Assembly (NCBI RefSeq): GCF_003634555.1
Contig: NZ_RBKS01000001.1
Span: 3,782,001 to 3,846,000 of the forward strand
Direction of reading: 5' to 3'
DNA from: Frondihabitans australicus
GTDB lineage: Bacteria > Actinomycetota > Actinomycetes > Actinomycetales > Microbacteriaceae
DNA: 64,000 nucleotides
A model generated the notes under the pieces. That model was not told the DNA's origin and made no database searches. It saw only the letters and a list, made by a program, of their open reading frames with translations. A program made the position numbers and the translations under genes. Shown here piece by piece: positions 559 to 63,931 of this stretch; the stretch's first letter is position 1, and the number at the start of each line of letters is the position of its first letter.

Positions 559-1752
559 ATGGTCTCCATCGGCATGATCGGCGCCGGCCAGTTCGCCGGC
601 TCGTTCGCCAAGCTGTTCAAGATCCACCCCGACGTCTCGCGGGTGCTCGTGACGGATCTGCTGCCCGAGAGGGCCGCCGAGCTGAACGAGCGCGAGCACC
701 TCGACGGGACCGTCGCCGACTTCGACGCCATGCTCGCGTCGGACGTCGACGCGGTCGCGATCTTCACGCAGCGCTGGACTCACGGGCCCCTCGTCGCCGC
801 GGCTCTCAAGGCCGGCAAGCACGTCTACTCGGCGGTGCCCATGGCCATCGCCGTCGACGAGATCGAGACGATCATCGACCTCGTGCGCGAGACGAAGCTC
901 ACCTACATGATGGGCGAGACGAGCTACTACAACCCGGCCACGATCTTCGCCCGCGAGAAGGTCAAGGAGGGCGCCTTCGGCCGCATCTTCTACGCCGAGG
1001 GCGACTACGTGCACGACATGGACCTCGGCTTCTACGCCGCCTACCAGTACTCGGGCGGCGAGGACTGGAAGAAGACGGCGTCGTACCCGCCCATGCTCTA
1101 CCCGACGCACGCGATCGGCGGCGTGCTCGGCGCGATCCCGGGCCACGCGGTGTCGGTGTCGTGCATCGGCGTGCAGGACCAGCGCGGCGACGGCGTCTTC
1201 GACAAGGAGGTCAGCCAGTTCGGCAACGACTTCTCGAACGCGACGGCGCTCTTCGAGCTCAACGACGGCGGCGTCATGCGCACCAACGAGATGCGCCGCG
1301 TCGGCTACCCGTCGCAGATCCGCGAGTCGCGGTTCCGGTTCTTCGGCACCGAGGCGAGCTTCGAGCAGCTGGCGGAGGTGAGCGTGTGGCAGGACAAGCA
1401 CGAGGTGCACGACATCTCGGACAAGATCACCACGAAGCCGACGCTGGCCCACGACGATCCTGCGCTCGCCAATGTCGACCCCGCACTGCGCGACGCGTTC
1501 GTGTCGGGCTACGCCGAGGTGCACGACACGTCGCGCCTGCCGGAGGAGTACCGCGGCGTGCCGTCGGGCCACGAGGGGAGCCACCACTTCCTGGTCGACG
1601 ACTTCGTGCGCGCCGTGGTCGACGGCACTCTGCCGCCGGTGAACGCCTGGGTCGCGGCGCGGTACACGCTGCCCGGCATCATCGCCCACGAGTCGGCGAA
1701 GCAGCACGGCGAGCGGCTGCCGATCCCGGACTTCGGCGACCCGGTGCAGTAG
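559..1752 (+). CDS. Gfo/Idh/MocA family NAD(P)-dependent oxidoreductase, variant without the EKP lysine
   Basis: 397 residues. The ATG at 559 follows an AGAAAGGA ribosome site, and the frame upstream of it is merely open. The N-terminus MVSIGMIGAGQFAG is a Rossmann dinucleotide fold with its glycine motif at residues 8-14. The family normally carries a Glu-Lys-Pro triad after the fourth strand whose lysine is catalytic; here the matching place reads GKHVYSAVPMA (residues 87-97), so Glu and Lys are replaced by Ala and Val. The C-terminal half is the usual beta-sheet substrate domain. The gene follows a sugar-binding protein gene and probably acts on the imported sugar or a derivative, but the lost lysine means dehydrogenase activity is not certain. 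A palindromic repeat follows the stop. Confidence 0.85.
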   Translation: MVSIGMIGAGQFAGSFAKLFKIHPDVSRVLVTDLLPERAAELNEREHLDGTVADFDAMLASDVDAVAIFTQRWTHGPLVAAALKAGKHVYSAVPMAIAVDEIETIIDLVRETKLTYMMGETSYYNPATIFAREKVKEGAFGRIFYAEGDYVHDMDLGFYAAYQYSGGEDWKKTASYPPMLYPTHAIGGVLGAIPGHAVSVSCIGVQDQRGDGVFDKEVSQFGNDFSNATALFELNDGGVMRTNEMRRVGYPSQIRESRFRFFGTEASFEQLAEVSVWQDKHEVHDISDKITTKPTLAHDDPALANVDPALRDAFVSGYAEVHDTSRLPEEYRGVPSGHEGSHHFLVDDFVRAVVDGTLPPVNAWVAARYTLPGIIAHESAKQHGERLPIPDFGDPVQ

Positions 1753-1778
1753 CCCTGCGCCTCCTGCTGCCTCCGGGG

Positions 1779-1834
1779 CTCCCAAAAACGACTCTGCACA
1801 CGTGATTTCGCGTGTGCAGAGTCGTTTTCGGGAG
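1779..1834. repeat. Dispersed intergenic palindrome, family A copy 1
   Basis: A 24-bp arm beginning CTCCCAAAAACGACTCTGC is followed by an 8-nt loop and its inverted copy, with one mismatch. The same core occurs at 18259-18320 and 26115-26172. It lies 26 nt after the oxidoreductase stop, so it can act as a transcription terminator. However, long, nearly identical arms in unrelated places suggest a repeated element rather than a plain terminator. Confidence 0.85.
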
Positions 1835-1841
1835 GGCTACC

Positions 1842-1899
1842 GCGACACAACGCGACACCTGCGACGCCTTGCCGCGTCGCAGGTGTCGCGTTGTGTCGC
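1842..1899. repeat. Dispersed intergenic palindrome, family B copy 1
   Basis: Perfect 26-bp arms (core GCGACACCTGCGACGC) around a 6-nt loop CTTGCC. A second member with the same core CGCGACACCTGCGAC is at 50959-51014. It sits 7 bp after family A copy 1 and just upstream of the lacI operator. Confidence 0.85.
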
Positions 1900-60758: not shown

Positions 60759-60793
60759 AAAACAGTGTACTCACTCTGTTTTGGTGCTAGCGT
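60759..60793. promoter_or_regulatory. TetR operator and two leaderless promoters
   Basis: AAAACAG (60759-60765) and CTGTTTT (60776-60782) form an inverted repeat with a 10-nt centre that also includes the smaller pair CAGTG and CACTCTG. TACACT (minus, 60764-60769) and TAGCGT (plus, 60788-60793) are -10 boxes 6 nt from the tetR and lacZ starts. The repeat overlaps the first and the -35 area of the second. Confidence 0.7.
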
Positions 60794-60799
60794 GCTGGC

Positions 60800-63700
60800 A
60801 TGACGACGACGCCGCTCTCGACCCTGTCCGACATCGCTCCCGGGTCGGGGCGACGGAGCCCTGCTCGGTCGTGGCTGCACTCCGACGCCCCGGCGATCGA
60901 CCTGTCGGGGGAGTGGGCCTTCAGGCTGCGCGCGAACGCCGAGACCGAGGCGGGATTCGCTGATCCTGCGACCGACCTCGACGGAGGCGACTGGGCGACG
61001 ATTCCGGTGCCGTCGCACTGGGTGCTCGAGGGCGGCGGCGCGTACGGGCGGCCGATCTACACGAACGTGCAGTTCCCGTTCCCGGTCGACCCGCCGTTCG
61101 TGCCCGACGAGAACCCGACCGGCGACTACCGGCGCGACTTCGAGGTGCCCGGCGACGCCTCGTGGAGCGGGTCCCGTCACCTTCTCCGCTTCGACGGCGT
61201 CGAGTCGCACTACCGCGTCTGGCTGAACGGCGAGGAGGTCGGCACCGGGTCGGGCAGCCGCCTGCAGCAGGAGTTCGACGTCACCGGCCTGCTCCGCCCC
61301 GGCCGCAACACGATCGCGGTGCGCGTGCACCAGTGGTCGGCCGCCTCGTACGTCGAGGACCAGGACCAGTGGTACCTGCCCGGAATCTTCCGCCCGGTCA
61401 CGCTGCTCGCACGCCCGGCCGGCGGGCTCGACGACGTCTGGCTGCGCACGTCGTGGGTCGACGGCACGGCCGCGCTCGACCCCGAGATCGTGGCTTCGGC
61501 CGAGGCGTACCCCGTGCGCCTCCGCGTACCCGAGCTCGACGTGGACGTCACGTGGCAGGAGCCCGCCGACGTCGCCCCGCTCACCCTCGCCGGCGCCGAA
61601 CCCTGGTCGGCCGAGAGCCCCCGACTGTACGACGCCCTGCTGTCGACGGCGTCCGAGACCGTCACCCAGCGGATCGGCTTCCGCACCGTGCGCATCGACG
61701 GCGACGTGCTGCTCGTCAACGGCGCGCCTCTGAAGATCCACGGCGTGAACCGCCACGAGGCGCACCCCGACCGGGGCCGCGTCTTCGACGAGGCGCACGC
61801 GCGCGAGGACCTCGCCCGCATGAAGCGCTTCAACGTCAACGCGATCCGCACCAGTCACTACCCGCCGCACCCGCGACTGCTCGACCTCTGCGACGAGCTC
61901 GGCCTCTGGGTGCTGCTCGAGTGCGACCTCGAGACCCACGGGTTCGAGCGCGGCGCCTCGGACGAGCTCGGCGGCCGGTGGCACGATCCGTCCGCCGATG
62001 CCTGGGCGGGCAACCCGTCGGACGACCCTGCCTGGCGCGAGGTCTACCTCGACCGCATCGAGCGCACCGTCGAGCGAGACAAGAACCACGCCAGCATCGT
62101 CATCTGGTCGCTCGGCAACGAAGCCGGCACCGGGCGCAACCTCGCCGCGATGGCGGCCTGGGTGCACGAGCGCGACACGTCGCGGCCGGTGCACTACGAG
62201 GGCGACCATGCCGCCGCCTACACCGACATCTACTCGCGGATGTACCCGTCGATCGTCGAGACCGAGGCGTTCGCGACCGACGGCACCTCGCTCTTCGAGG
62301 GCGCGACAGCCGCTGAGTCGGCCCGCATCCGGACGATGCCGGTGCTGCTGTGCGAGTACATCCACGCCATGGGCAACGGGCCCGGCGCGATCGACCAGTA
62401 CGAGGAGCTCTTCGACGCCTACCCGCGGCTGATGGGCGGGTTCGTCTGGGAGTGGCGCGACCACGGGATCCGCACGCGCGACGCTTCGGGCCGGGAGTTC
62501 TTCGGCTACGGCGGCGACTTCGGCGAGACCGTGCACGACGGCAACTTCGTCATGGACGGCATGCTCTTCTCGGACGACACGCCGTCGCCGGGGCTGCACG
62601 AGTACGCCGCCGTGGTGGCGCCGTTCCGGTTCGGCTTCGACGACAGCGTCGTCGCGATCAGCAACGTGCGGCACTCGGCCACGACGAGCGATGTCGACTT
62701 CGTGTGGCGCGTCGAGGTCGACGGCGTCGTTTCGGCCTCGGGGTCGCTCGACGTCGTCGACGCTGGCGACATCGCCAGCTGGGGGACCGACCGCGTCATC
62801 GCGGCCGGAGAGACGCTGATGGTCTCGCTGCCGGAGGAGGCCCTCGAGGCACCGGAGGGGGCCGCGGGCCGTGAGGCCTGGCTCACGGTCGAGGCGGTGC
62901 TGCGCGACGACACGGCGTGGGCGCAGGCCGGGCACGTGGTCGGGCGCGGACAGCGCCGGCTCGCGGCTGCCTCCGGAACGCAGGCCGGGCCGGCACGCCC
63001 GGGCGGGCGCCTCGGCTCCTGGGGCCCGTGGCGCGGTGGCGGCGCGGACGTGTCTGCGACGCTCGACCTCGGCCCGGCGGCCTTCGACCACGGGCGGCTC
63101 GTCGAGCTCGCAGGGGCGCCGGTCGCCGGCCCGTCGCTCGCGCTGTTCCGGGCGCCGACCGACAACGACGCGCTGCACTCCGCCGGCCTCTACGACCCGC
63201 AGGGTCCGGAGGTGAACCTCGGCCTCGGCGTGCCCGGCCCGTCGCTCGCCGAGATCTGGCGGGCGGCCCGGCTCGACCTGCTCGCCCCGCGGACGCTCGA
63301 CGTCGAGGCGTCCGCCGACGGAACGGGCCTCCTCGTGCGCGAGCGCTGGGCGGCGCCGTCGTCACGCCTCTCGTGGACGACCGAGACTCGCTGGCGGATC
63401 GCCGACGGAGAGCTCACGCTCGCGGTGGCGATCCTGCCCTCGCGCGGGTGGAACCTGATCCTGCCGCGCATCGGCGTCCGCTTCGACCTGCCGACCGCGG
63501 TCGACGGTGCCTCGTGGTTCGGCACCGGGCCGCACGAGTCGTACCCCGACAGCCGCCACGCGGCCTACGTCGGGCGCTTCGAGGCCTCGATCGACGAGCT
63601 CGCCGCGCCGTACGCCCGGCCGCAGGAGACCGGTCACCGCAGCGACGTCCGCTCGCTCGACCTCTCGCGCGGCGGCACTCCGTGGCTGTCGCTCGACGCG

Positions 63701-63931
63701 GTGGCCGACGAGCGCGGACGCCTGCCCGGGTTCACGCTGTCGCGGTGGACGGCGCAGGAGCTGGCGAGCGCCGCCCACCCGAGCGACCTCCCCGATCCTG
63801 CCCACTCGTACCTCTACCTCGACGCCGCGCAGAACGGCCTCGGGTCTCGGGCGTGCGGCGTCGACGTCTGGCCGGAGTTCGCGCTGCGGCCCGAGGCCCG
63901 CACCCTGCGCGTCACGCTCGCCGCCCTCTAG
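60800..63931 (+). CDS. lacZ: Beta-galactosidase, glycoside hydrolase family 2
   Basis: 1043 residues, the full length of E. coli LacZ-type enzymes. Domain order is the five-domain LacZ layout: jelly-roll N-terminal domain (residues 35-205, with [20 protein letters not shown] and [19 protein letters not shown]), an Ig-like domain (210-295), the TIM barrel ([20 protein letters not shown] onwards), another Ig-like domain and the C-terminal beta-sandwich (small_Bgal). Acid/base Glu441 is in [11 protein letters not shown] and nucleophile Glu519 in [15 protein letters not shown]. It hydrolyses terminal beta-D-galactosides, probably in the cytoplasm as no signal peptide is seen. No lactose permease lies beside it. 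TetR is its likely regulator. Confidence 0.97.

Follow-up and report, generated by a model that had tools for sequence, protein, structure and literature searches.

The word and its copies in the window

The 64-kb window analyzed here (positions 3782001-3846000 of the complete, 4,036,723-bp chromosome of Frondihabitans australicus, G000:C1; G000 denotes this genome) carries 86 copies of the word GCAGGA(G/T)C, hereafter GCAGGAKC, 39 on the plus strand and 47 on the minus strand by exact pattern search. GCAGGAKC is a real, family-restricted, dialect-forming genome word. A first-pass annotation made from the window alone had claimed strong over-representation on both strands, estimating about 76 copies (34 plus, 42 minus) against roughly 8 expected from base composition. 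The over-representation is confirmed; the exact count is higher than the estimate, and the expectation of 8 matches the order-0 figure and rises to 22.1 under an order-3 Markov model. The statement that most copies carry C before the first G was too strong, given that the 9-mer CGCAGGAKC accounts for 41 of the 86 copies (6.9 expected at order 3). Eleven of 13 example coordinates were exact, and two are corrected here (34146 to 34148, and 1465 to 1456). The palindromic double copy placed at 31175 is present, and copies do lie in coding and non-coding DNA in many frames; in the genome sample described below they occupy all six coding phases as well as the DNA between genes. The copies and their paired arrangements are as follows.

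1456..63801, both strands: all 86 copies of GCAGGAKC (exact pattern search)
Plus strand, GCAGGAKC, starts (exact pattern search): 2901, 4400, 4824, 5478, 5756, 9604, 10574, 13341, 13796, 14747, 15938, 19957, 21390, 22901, 25188, 25410, 26654, 27649, 28369, 29417, 31176, 32581, 34148, 36572, 41022, 43518, 43928, 44105, 46630, 49853, 52851, 54907, 55515, 56115, 58158, 59383, 60089, 61555, 63754
Minus strand, GMTCCTGC, starts (exact pattern search): 1456, 2598, 3112, 7309, 7754, 8558, 10400, 12199, 12262, 12815, 12929, 14383, 18243, 18443, 18665, 20158, 28078, 29022, 29252, 29823, 31180, 31844, 33201, 34090, 35018, 36455, 36671, 37710, 39975, 43634, 44048, 44435, 46888, 48030, 51132, 53028, 53524, 54797, 55029, 55364, 57147, 58191, 60114, 60962, 63430, 63457, 63794
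31175..31188, both strands: palindromic double copy CGCAGGATCCTGCG (pattern search)
58157..58199: convergent pair, CGCAGGATC (+) at 58157 and GCTCCTGCG (-) at 58191
60088..60122: convergent pair, CGCAGGATC (+) at 60088 and GCTCCTGCG (-) at 60114
63753..63801: convergent pair, CGCAGGAGC (+) at 63753 and GATCCTGC (-) at 63794
34090..34155: divergent pair, GATCCTGC (-) at 34090 and GCAGGAGC (+) at 34148
44048..44112: divergent pair, GATCCTGC (-) at 44048 and GCAGGAGC (+) at 44105

Among the genes of the window, one at 37911-43712 encodes a repetitive protein of 1,933 aa that resembles surface adhesins and contains Big_9, cadherin-like and CshA repeats; a search of genome contigs with this protein gave just three hits, all distant, including a Micrococcales metagenome-assembled genome.

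Enrichment against null models

Across the whole 4.04-Mb genome, 4,328 copies of GCAGGAKC were counted (2145 + 2183 on the two strands), a density of about 1.07 per kb that includes copies expected by chance, compared with 623 + 669 matches to the reversed-letter pattern, a crude control in that it contains GGAC and partly CTAG, both of which this genome avoids. Separately, in one synonymous shuffle of the called genes, GGAC/GTCC-containing words fell short of expectation (GGGAC 0.37, GGACC 0.38 and GGACA 0.44 of the expected count), perhaps reflecting restriction avoidance. Markov models were applied to a sample that combined the window with 20-kb stretches taken at even intervals and amounted to 1.264 Mb, about 31% of the chromosome. 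At order 3, the 8-mers GCAGGAGC (736 vs 193 expected) and GCAGGATC (694 vs 178) and the 9-mers CGCAGGAGC (420 vs 63) and CGCAGGATC (385 vs 59) were strongly enriched, and the other variants at the seventh base were not (GCAGGAAC 107 vs 89, GCAGGACC 54 vs 101). The genome-wide count, a check proposed in the first-pass annotation, does not refute the enrichment, and the count in the sample is far from the order-3 expectation. Over the maximal-order model the 8-mer excess is small (GCAGGATC 694 vs 665, GCAGGAGC 736 vs 649) because the sub-words already hold the enrichment. This word family heads the lists of both 8-mers and 9-mers in the sample, whether ranked against the order-3 model or against synonymous shuffling.

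The words could in principle reflect the preferences of GC-rich DNA for certain codons or codon pairs (Ile-Leu, Leu-Leu, Gln-Glu), and ATC CTG and CTC CTG are indeed the commonest single phase of each 8-mer. Synonymous codons were shuffled within each gene, with protein and codon usage kept. In the 38 called genes of the window, 64 copies of GCAGGAKC were observed against 15.8 after shuffling (standard deviation 3.2, maximum 23, 200 shuffles), and 30 copies of CGCAGGAKC against 4.7 (maximum 11). In a set of 885 genes (919 kb) called by a simple codon-usage scorer, a crude caller that leaves some coding sequence in the 'intergenic' DNA, CGCAGGATC occurred 265 times vs 25.4 and CGCAGGAGC 289 times vs 54.4, that is, 10.4-fold and 5.3-fold above the shuffled genes. 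The Val-Leu analogue GCAGGACC lies below expectation (40 vs 98), the word is about equally frequent outside called genes, and all six phase and orientation classes of the 885 genes hold copies, including the phases that need rare codons. Copies of the word contain 16.4% of CCT, 9.8% of GAT, about 8% of GGA and of GCA and 7.5% of AGG codons in called genes. Codon usage is ruled out as the cause by these shuffles, and we give this explanation a negligible chance.

Anatomy and chromosomal distribution

The GCAGGA(G/T)C core is sharp, with one-mismatch neighbors of the 9-mer at 0-3-fold of expectation except at the looser first C. Flanking preferences were read from copies between genes or in rare phases, which owe least to codon choice. 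Upstream they are G at -4/-3 and C at -1; downstream they are C or A at +1, G at +2 and, more weakly, G at +4/+5. The extended consensus is approximately GGNC GCAGGAKC MG, its graded flanks being weaker than the core.

Signals that direct chromosome segregation, such as the FtsK-orienting polar sequences (KOPS), have a strong origin-to-terminus strand skew. With the origin assumed near position 1 and the terminus near 2.0 Mb, as read from a noisy GC skew, the sampled copies were split 324/347 between the strands in the right half of the chromosome and 377/382 in the left half. Strand skew relative to origin and terminus, which the first-pass annotation had suggested checking, is thus absent, and a KOPS/FtsK-like replication-strand signal was rejected.

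Density is even, at 12.1 copies per 10 kb (12.09) with a variance of 9.7 in the 110 bins with at least 68% GC; the remaining 16 of 126 bins, below 68% GC, average 5.75 copies per 10 kb, and some of them may be acquired islands. Such an even genome-wide spread, together with the restriction of the word to one lineage, would suit a site for an abundant nucleoid protein, or for a methylase or phosphorothioation system that protects or favors the word, with enrichment arising by repair or selection as might apply to highly iterated palindrome 1 (HIP1). HIP1 is a palindrome, and the word does not fall in the HIP1-like class because GCAGGAKC is non-palindromic; its extended, graded consensus and its dialects also speak against this explanation, which we consider quite unlikely.

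Palindromic doubles make up a small minority of copies, and some copies form hairpin-like pairs 3' of gene ends. The latter, and the existence of a separate inverted-repeat element in the genome, are what could be said for a mobile or palindromic repeat family containing the word, of the repetitive extragenic palindrome (REP) or miniature inverted-repeat transposable element (MITE) type. Copies of GCAGGAKC occur singly inside genes in all phases and share only short graded flanks, with no longer unit seen, making a repeat family highly improbable as their source. The separate element, itself MITE/REP-like, consists of GTCGCAGGTGTCGCGTTTTGTCGC and, at a constant offset of 46 bp, an inverted copy that faces it; the 31% sample of the chromosome has about 18 such pairs (for example, 347207/347253, 540561/540607, 1224529/1224575 and 3868799/3868845) and none in the window.

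Dialects within the genus and turnover of sites

CGCAGGA exceeds its reversed control in all 7 genomes of the genus (F. australicus and six others). For five of the six genus-mates, best words were searched for in 100-200 kb per genome; the sixth (G004), with a contig too short to supply stretches, was assessed by whole-genome counts. Four of the five have clear dialects of one core: GCGCAGGAACT in G002, GCAGGATGC in G003 and GCGCAGGATC in G006 and G005. Against the order-3 model, the best words are GCAGGAACT in G002 (32 vs 0.9), GCAGGATGC in G003 (41 vs 2.5), CGCAGGATC in G006 (43 vs 4.1) and GCAGGATC in G005 (76 vs 14.0), with a weaker signal in G001 (GCAGGATC 44 vs 12.3, accompanied by CAGGATGC); these words also exceed synonymous shuffling. 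The whole genome of G004 holds 227 + 240 copies of CGCAGGATC vs 4 + 0 of its reverse.

Individual sites are not conserved among relatives. In alignments of about 138 kb to five genus-mates at 74-80% identity, 27 of 153 F. australicus sites were identical in the relative; for control 8-mers containing five G or C, the figure was 2,766 of 10,073 (27%). Conservation among relatives had been another proposed check, and its outcome is turnover: the sites are not individually conserved, and density is therefore kept by gain and loss, as expected of copies that spread by biased uptake or recombination. Conversion of orthologous sites in place from one dialect to another was hardly seen, sites being mostly gained or lost.

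Other repeats were encountered in the genus-mates. The palindrome ACCTATAGGT occurs 14 times in 200 kb of G001 vs about 0.02 expected, overlapping words reading GAAATCGAAGGGGATT occur in about 10 copies in 100 kb of G005 and resemble a CRISPR repeat, and GTGGAGTCTC repeats number 16-17 in 100 kb of G003 vs 0.4-0.5 expected.

A related word across the family

In a genome of another genus of the family (G436), the F. australicus dialect recurs, with 204 + 203 copies of CGCAGGATC vs 2 + 0 reversed. A different form, CGGATGCC(G), is among the top words in G007 and G009, from other genera of the family, and CGGATGCCG exceeds the crude reversed control at least 3-fold in 45 of 70 family genomes (33 of them with at least 300 copies) and at least 10-fold in 17 of the 70. 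The maximum among these 70 is 2,536 copies in 3.7 Mb, a 35-fold excess (G452). No genome among 55 from other families of the order reached 3-fold, the highest ratio being 2.8, and three further family genomes in the draw from the order hold 800 (G464), 2,245 (G481) and 3,084 (G497) copies. The motif reads approximately GCGGATGCCGC over 60 kb of G452, its 9-mer occurring 61 times vs 4.5 at order 3 and, in called genes, 51 times vs 5.0 after synonymous shuffling. F. australicus lacks the CGGATGCCG form (198 vs 147). The family includes reduced genomes of 0.9-1.8 Mb, and its members with small genomes have few copies of this form. The piece GGAT(G)CC common to the CGGATGCCG and GCAGGA forms suggests that they are related dialects of one lineage.

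In 100 kb of plasmid pTCL of Curtobacterium sp. TC1, CGCGGATGC occurs 20 times vs 3.6 expected and GGATGCGAC 14 times vs 2.0, possibly the dialect of Curtobacterium, and CGGATGCCG has only 5 copies.

Spacing of copies by strand

Spacing was measured in 56 of 61 stretches of the F. australicus genome with at least 67% GC, the five stretches below that value being dropped. Same-strand copies 50-400 bp apart are depleted (179 vs 281 expected, z -6.3), and opposite-strand copies are not (296 vs 290); for the 9-mer, the figures are 42 vs 90 on the same strand and 103 vs 93 on opposite strands. The avoidance reaches several hundred bp, up to about 1 kb. None of 60 random 8-mers of like abundance, drawn from 92, had so low a ratio of same-strand to opposite-strand pairs at 10-400 bp (0.57 for the motif, at least 0.89 for every control). 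Simple deletion between direct repeats may cause same-strand avoidance; however, the 60 control words show no such avoidance, and that of GCAGGAKC persists between two copies inside one gene, where deletions would mostly break the gene (30 same-strand vs 75 opposite-strand pairs within 150 bp).

In the genus-mates, pairs at 10-1000 bp on the same strand, on opposite strands and as expected number 2, 15 and 11.8 in G002; 22, 43 and 33.1 in G006; 28, 40 and 31.8 in G005; and 10, 12 and 17.6 in G001, for a pooled 62, 110 and 94. G003 was kept out of the pool and shows no same-strand avoidance (GCAGGATGC 16, 10 and 9.7; GCAGGAGC 20, 21 and 15.3, in the same order). In G452, over 60 kb only, GGATGCCG gives 47 same-strand and 61 opposite-strand pairs vs 68 expected.

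As a yardstick we used a genome found in a draw of 369 (G292), which, judging from 1,270 copies of the Pasteurellaceae uptake signal sequence (USS) AAGTGCGGT in 2.0 Mb, appears to be of the Pasteurellaceae type. In the 587 kb measured, copies 50-400 bp apart avoid each other on the same strand (12 vs 38.5) and on opposite strands (25 vs 38.8). Same-strand avoidance is thus common to F. australicus and this single control; avoidance between opposite strands is seen only in the control, where convergent pairs within 50 bp are also far commoner (25 vs about 3 expected, compared with a mild excess of 33 vs 19.7 in F. australicus).

The main rival to an uptake signal is a Chi-like signal, read one way by an AdnAB-type helicase-nuclease, or another end-processing enzyme, that degrades DNA from a break and switches to a recombination-loading mode. 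In favor of this explanation, repulsion in F. australicus is limited to same-strand copies, just as reading in one direction would give, and the pooled genus-mates show the same tendency. Candidate enzymes are at hand: of the 24 genomes searched, all except G010, with a single match, gave at least two PDDEXK_1 matches, and in F. australicus these form an adjacent pair of AdnA/AdnB size. One TGA lies inside the matched stretch of the second member of that pair (G000:C1:2117559-2118140), which may be a real stop or an alignment overrunning the gene end; it counts against the rival, as does the lack of same-strand avoidance in G003 and the fact that part of the avoidance is also found in the uptake-sequence control. 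A tblastn search of an AdnA fragment against plasmids returned nothing. To our knowledge, mycobacterial AdnAB is not regulated by Chi. GCAGGAKC resembles Chi and Chi-like octamers (PMC8022716) in being an over-represented octamer, at orders 0-3 and with little excess over the maximal-order model, and its orientation-specific spacing in F. australicus would suit an enzyme reading in one direction. According to the same source, leading-strand polarity is used to define and search for Chi, which occurs once per 5 kb in Escherichia coli; the F. australicus word is without such polarity, about five times denser at about one per kb, longer and graded, and changes within a genus. On balance we regard a Chi-like role as unlikely, with a better chance than that of a protein-binding or modification site.

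Uptake and pilus machinery

F. australicus has ComEC (1069539-1070330) and, adjoining rpoC, a type IVa pilus locus (G000:C1:2794001-2798540) with a prepilin and PilC-like, PilT-like and PilB-like genes (Pfam T2SSE, T2SSF). The prepilin bears the signature GFTLIELLVVVIIIGILAAIAIP, has no Pfam match at 1e-8 and, like rpoC, was named by eye. ComEC was rejected as a predictor of the word: it has no discriminating power because 34 of 35 family genomes, chosen to include the richest and the poorest in the motif, have it irrespective of the word. In G001, the genus-mate with the weakest enrichment, the ComEC match (C1:2981383-2982173) is split over two reading frames, which might go with the weaker word signal or be a sequencing error.

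T2SSE has at least one match in all 36 genomes searched. PilB-like matches, at a cut-off better than 1e-100, were found in 10 of the 14 genera rich in the motif and in 4 of the 16 poor in it (Fisher p=0.026); the 30 genera were hand-picked from the ends of the range, the p value ignores descent, and some 'poor' genera have ratios of 5-7 on few copies. Motif-rich was defined as at least 8-fold and at least 300 copies, which 20 of the 70 genomes pass; 12 of these were tested, plus G481 and G497. All six genomes of the window's own genus that were searched have the PilB-like match, and all were left out of the Fisher test.

Discussion

The reading that we favor, to which we give about an even chance, is that GCAGGAKC is the species dialect of a family-wide self-recognition word for uptake in natural transformation. 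F. australicus has a non-palindromic, both-strand word with related dialects and without replication-strand bias, and encodes ComEC and a type IV filament; to its enrichment independent of codon use, its family restriction and its turnover, the uptake reading would add a receptor that binds the word, preferential entry of DNA carrying it, and a naturally competent cell. Free DNA with the word would be preferentially bound by a DNA-binding (minor) pilin of the filament, pulled to ComEA/ComEC and then recombined. Chance copies would spread by biased recombination, and we propose that the chromosome fills to about one copy per kb, in any reading frame, because fragments with the word enter more often, with individual sites coming and going and the preferred sequence drifting into dialects as the receptor changes.

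Comparison with known systems points in the same direction, at least in density, dialects, phase independence and absence of replication polarity, and not in spacing. DNA uptake sequences (DUS) are strand-symmetric, with copies in and between genes. In Neisseriaceae, as described in PMC3630211, the DUS is an over-represented word of about 10 bp that, like ours, has several family dialects sharing a short core and graded influence of the bases around it; its receptor is ComP. Unlike the DUS, the F. australicus word has an unrelated sequence, belongs to a monoderm, high-GC lineage and shows avoidance only on the same strand. The USS of Pasteurellaceae (PMC2346458 and PMC12616744) is similar in density, strand symmetry and same-strand avoidance. 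Micrococcus luteus is likewise an actinobacterium with ComEA/ComEC, naturally transformable through a Flp/Tad pilus (PMC4322843); unlike it, F. australicus additionally has a type IVa pilus locus, and the term 'uptake sequence' does not appear in the text of that paper. Among the kinds of signal named in the first-pass annotation, the uptake sequence therefore agrees with the results except in spacing and Chi agrees in spacing and not in polarity, with KOPS set aside for lack of polarity and HIP1 for lack of a palindrome.

Several observations weigh against uptake. Orientation-independent avoidance, a property of the one USS control and not a published definition, is not found in F. australicus, where opposite-strand copies do not avoid each other and convergent pairs are only mildly in excess, and G003 lacks same-strand avoidance altogether. 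Copies show no bias of position within genes, with flat quintiles, unlike the terminal bias within genes of Pasteurellaceae uptake sequences reported in PMC2346458. ComEC is nearly universal irrespective of the word, and the PilB-like ATPase is absent from 4 of 14 motif-rich and present in 4 of 16 motif-poor genera, which are not independent by descent. Finally, the open-licence literature searched yielded no report of natural transformation in Microbacteriaceae. The claim that no such word had been described for this lineage holds for titles and abstracts of the same literature, where none of this kind turned up for Actinobacteria or Microbacteriaceae, a weak negative given that most subscription journals lie outside its scope.

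If GCAGGAKC is an uptake signal, its spacing suggests that entry or processing is orientation-dependent, beyond the classical systems. A broader proposal, which we advance tentatively and as less probable than the uptake role itself, is that self-recognition words with species dialects are in use throughout a whole family of actinobacteria, probably Microbacteriaceae. Such a system would be without precedent in monoderms and in any family other than Neisseriaceae and Pasteurellaceae. In contrast to those two, the words would, at least in some species, be read in one orientation, each strand carrying its own independently spaced signals, so that species-specific uptake is tied to the direction in which a strand enters or recombines. 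The one-orientation part is made slightly less probable by G003, which is without strand-specific spacing.

Uptake sequences are the clearest case of bacteria recognizing DNA of their own kind, and the literature consulted treats them in two Gram-negative families only. If the uptake reading is true, the word would be a third, independently evolved case, in a large actinobacterial family with many dialects. The origin and drift of such words, their part in isolating species and the identity of the pilin that reads them would then become open to testing, and members of the family would be predicted to undergo natural transformation. If the word is Chi-like instead, it would be a candidate signal for AdnAB-type enzymes. 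Either way, it is a strong marker of vertical versus acquired DNA in these genomes.

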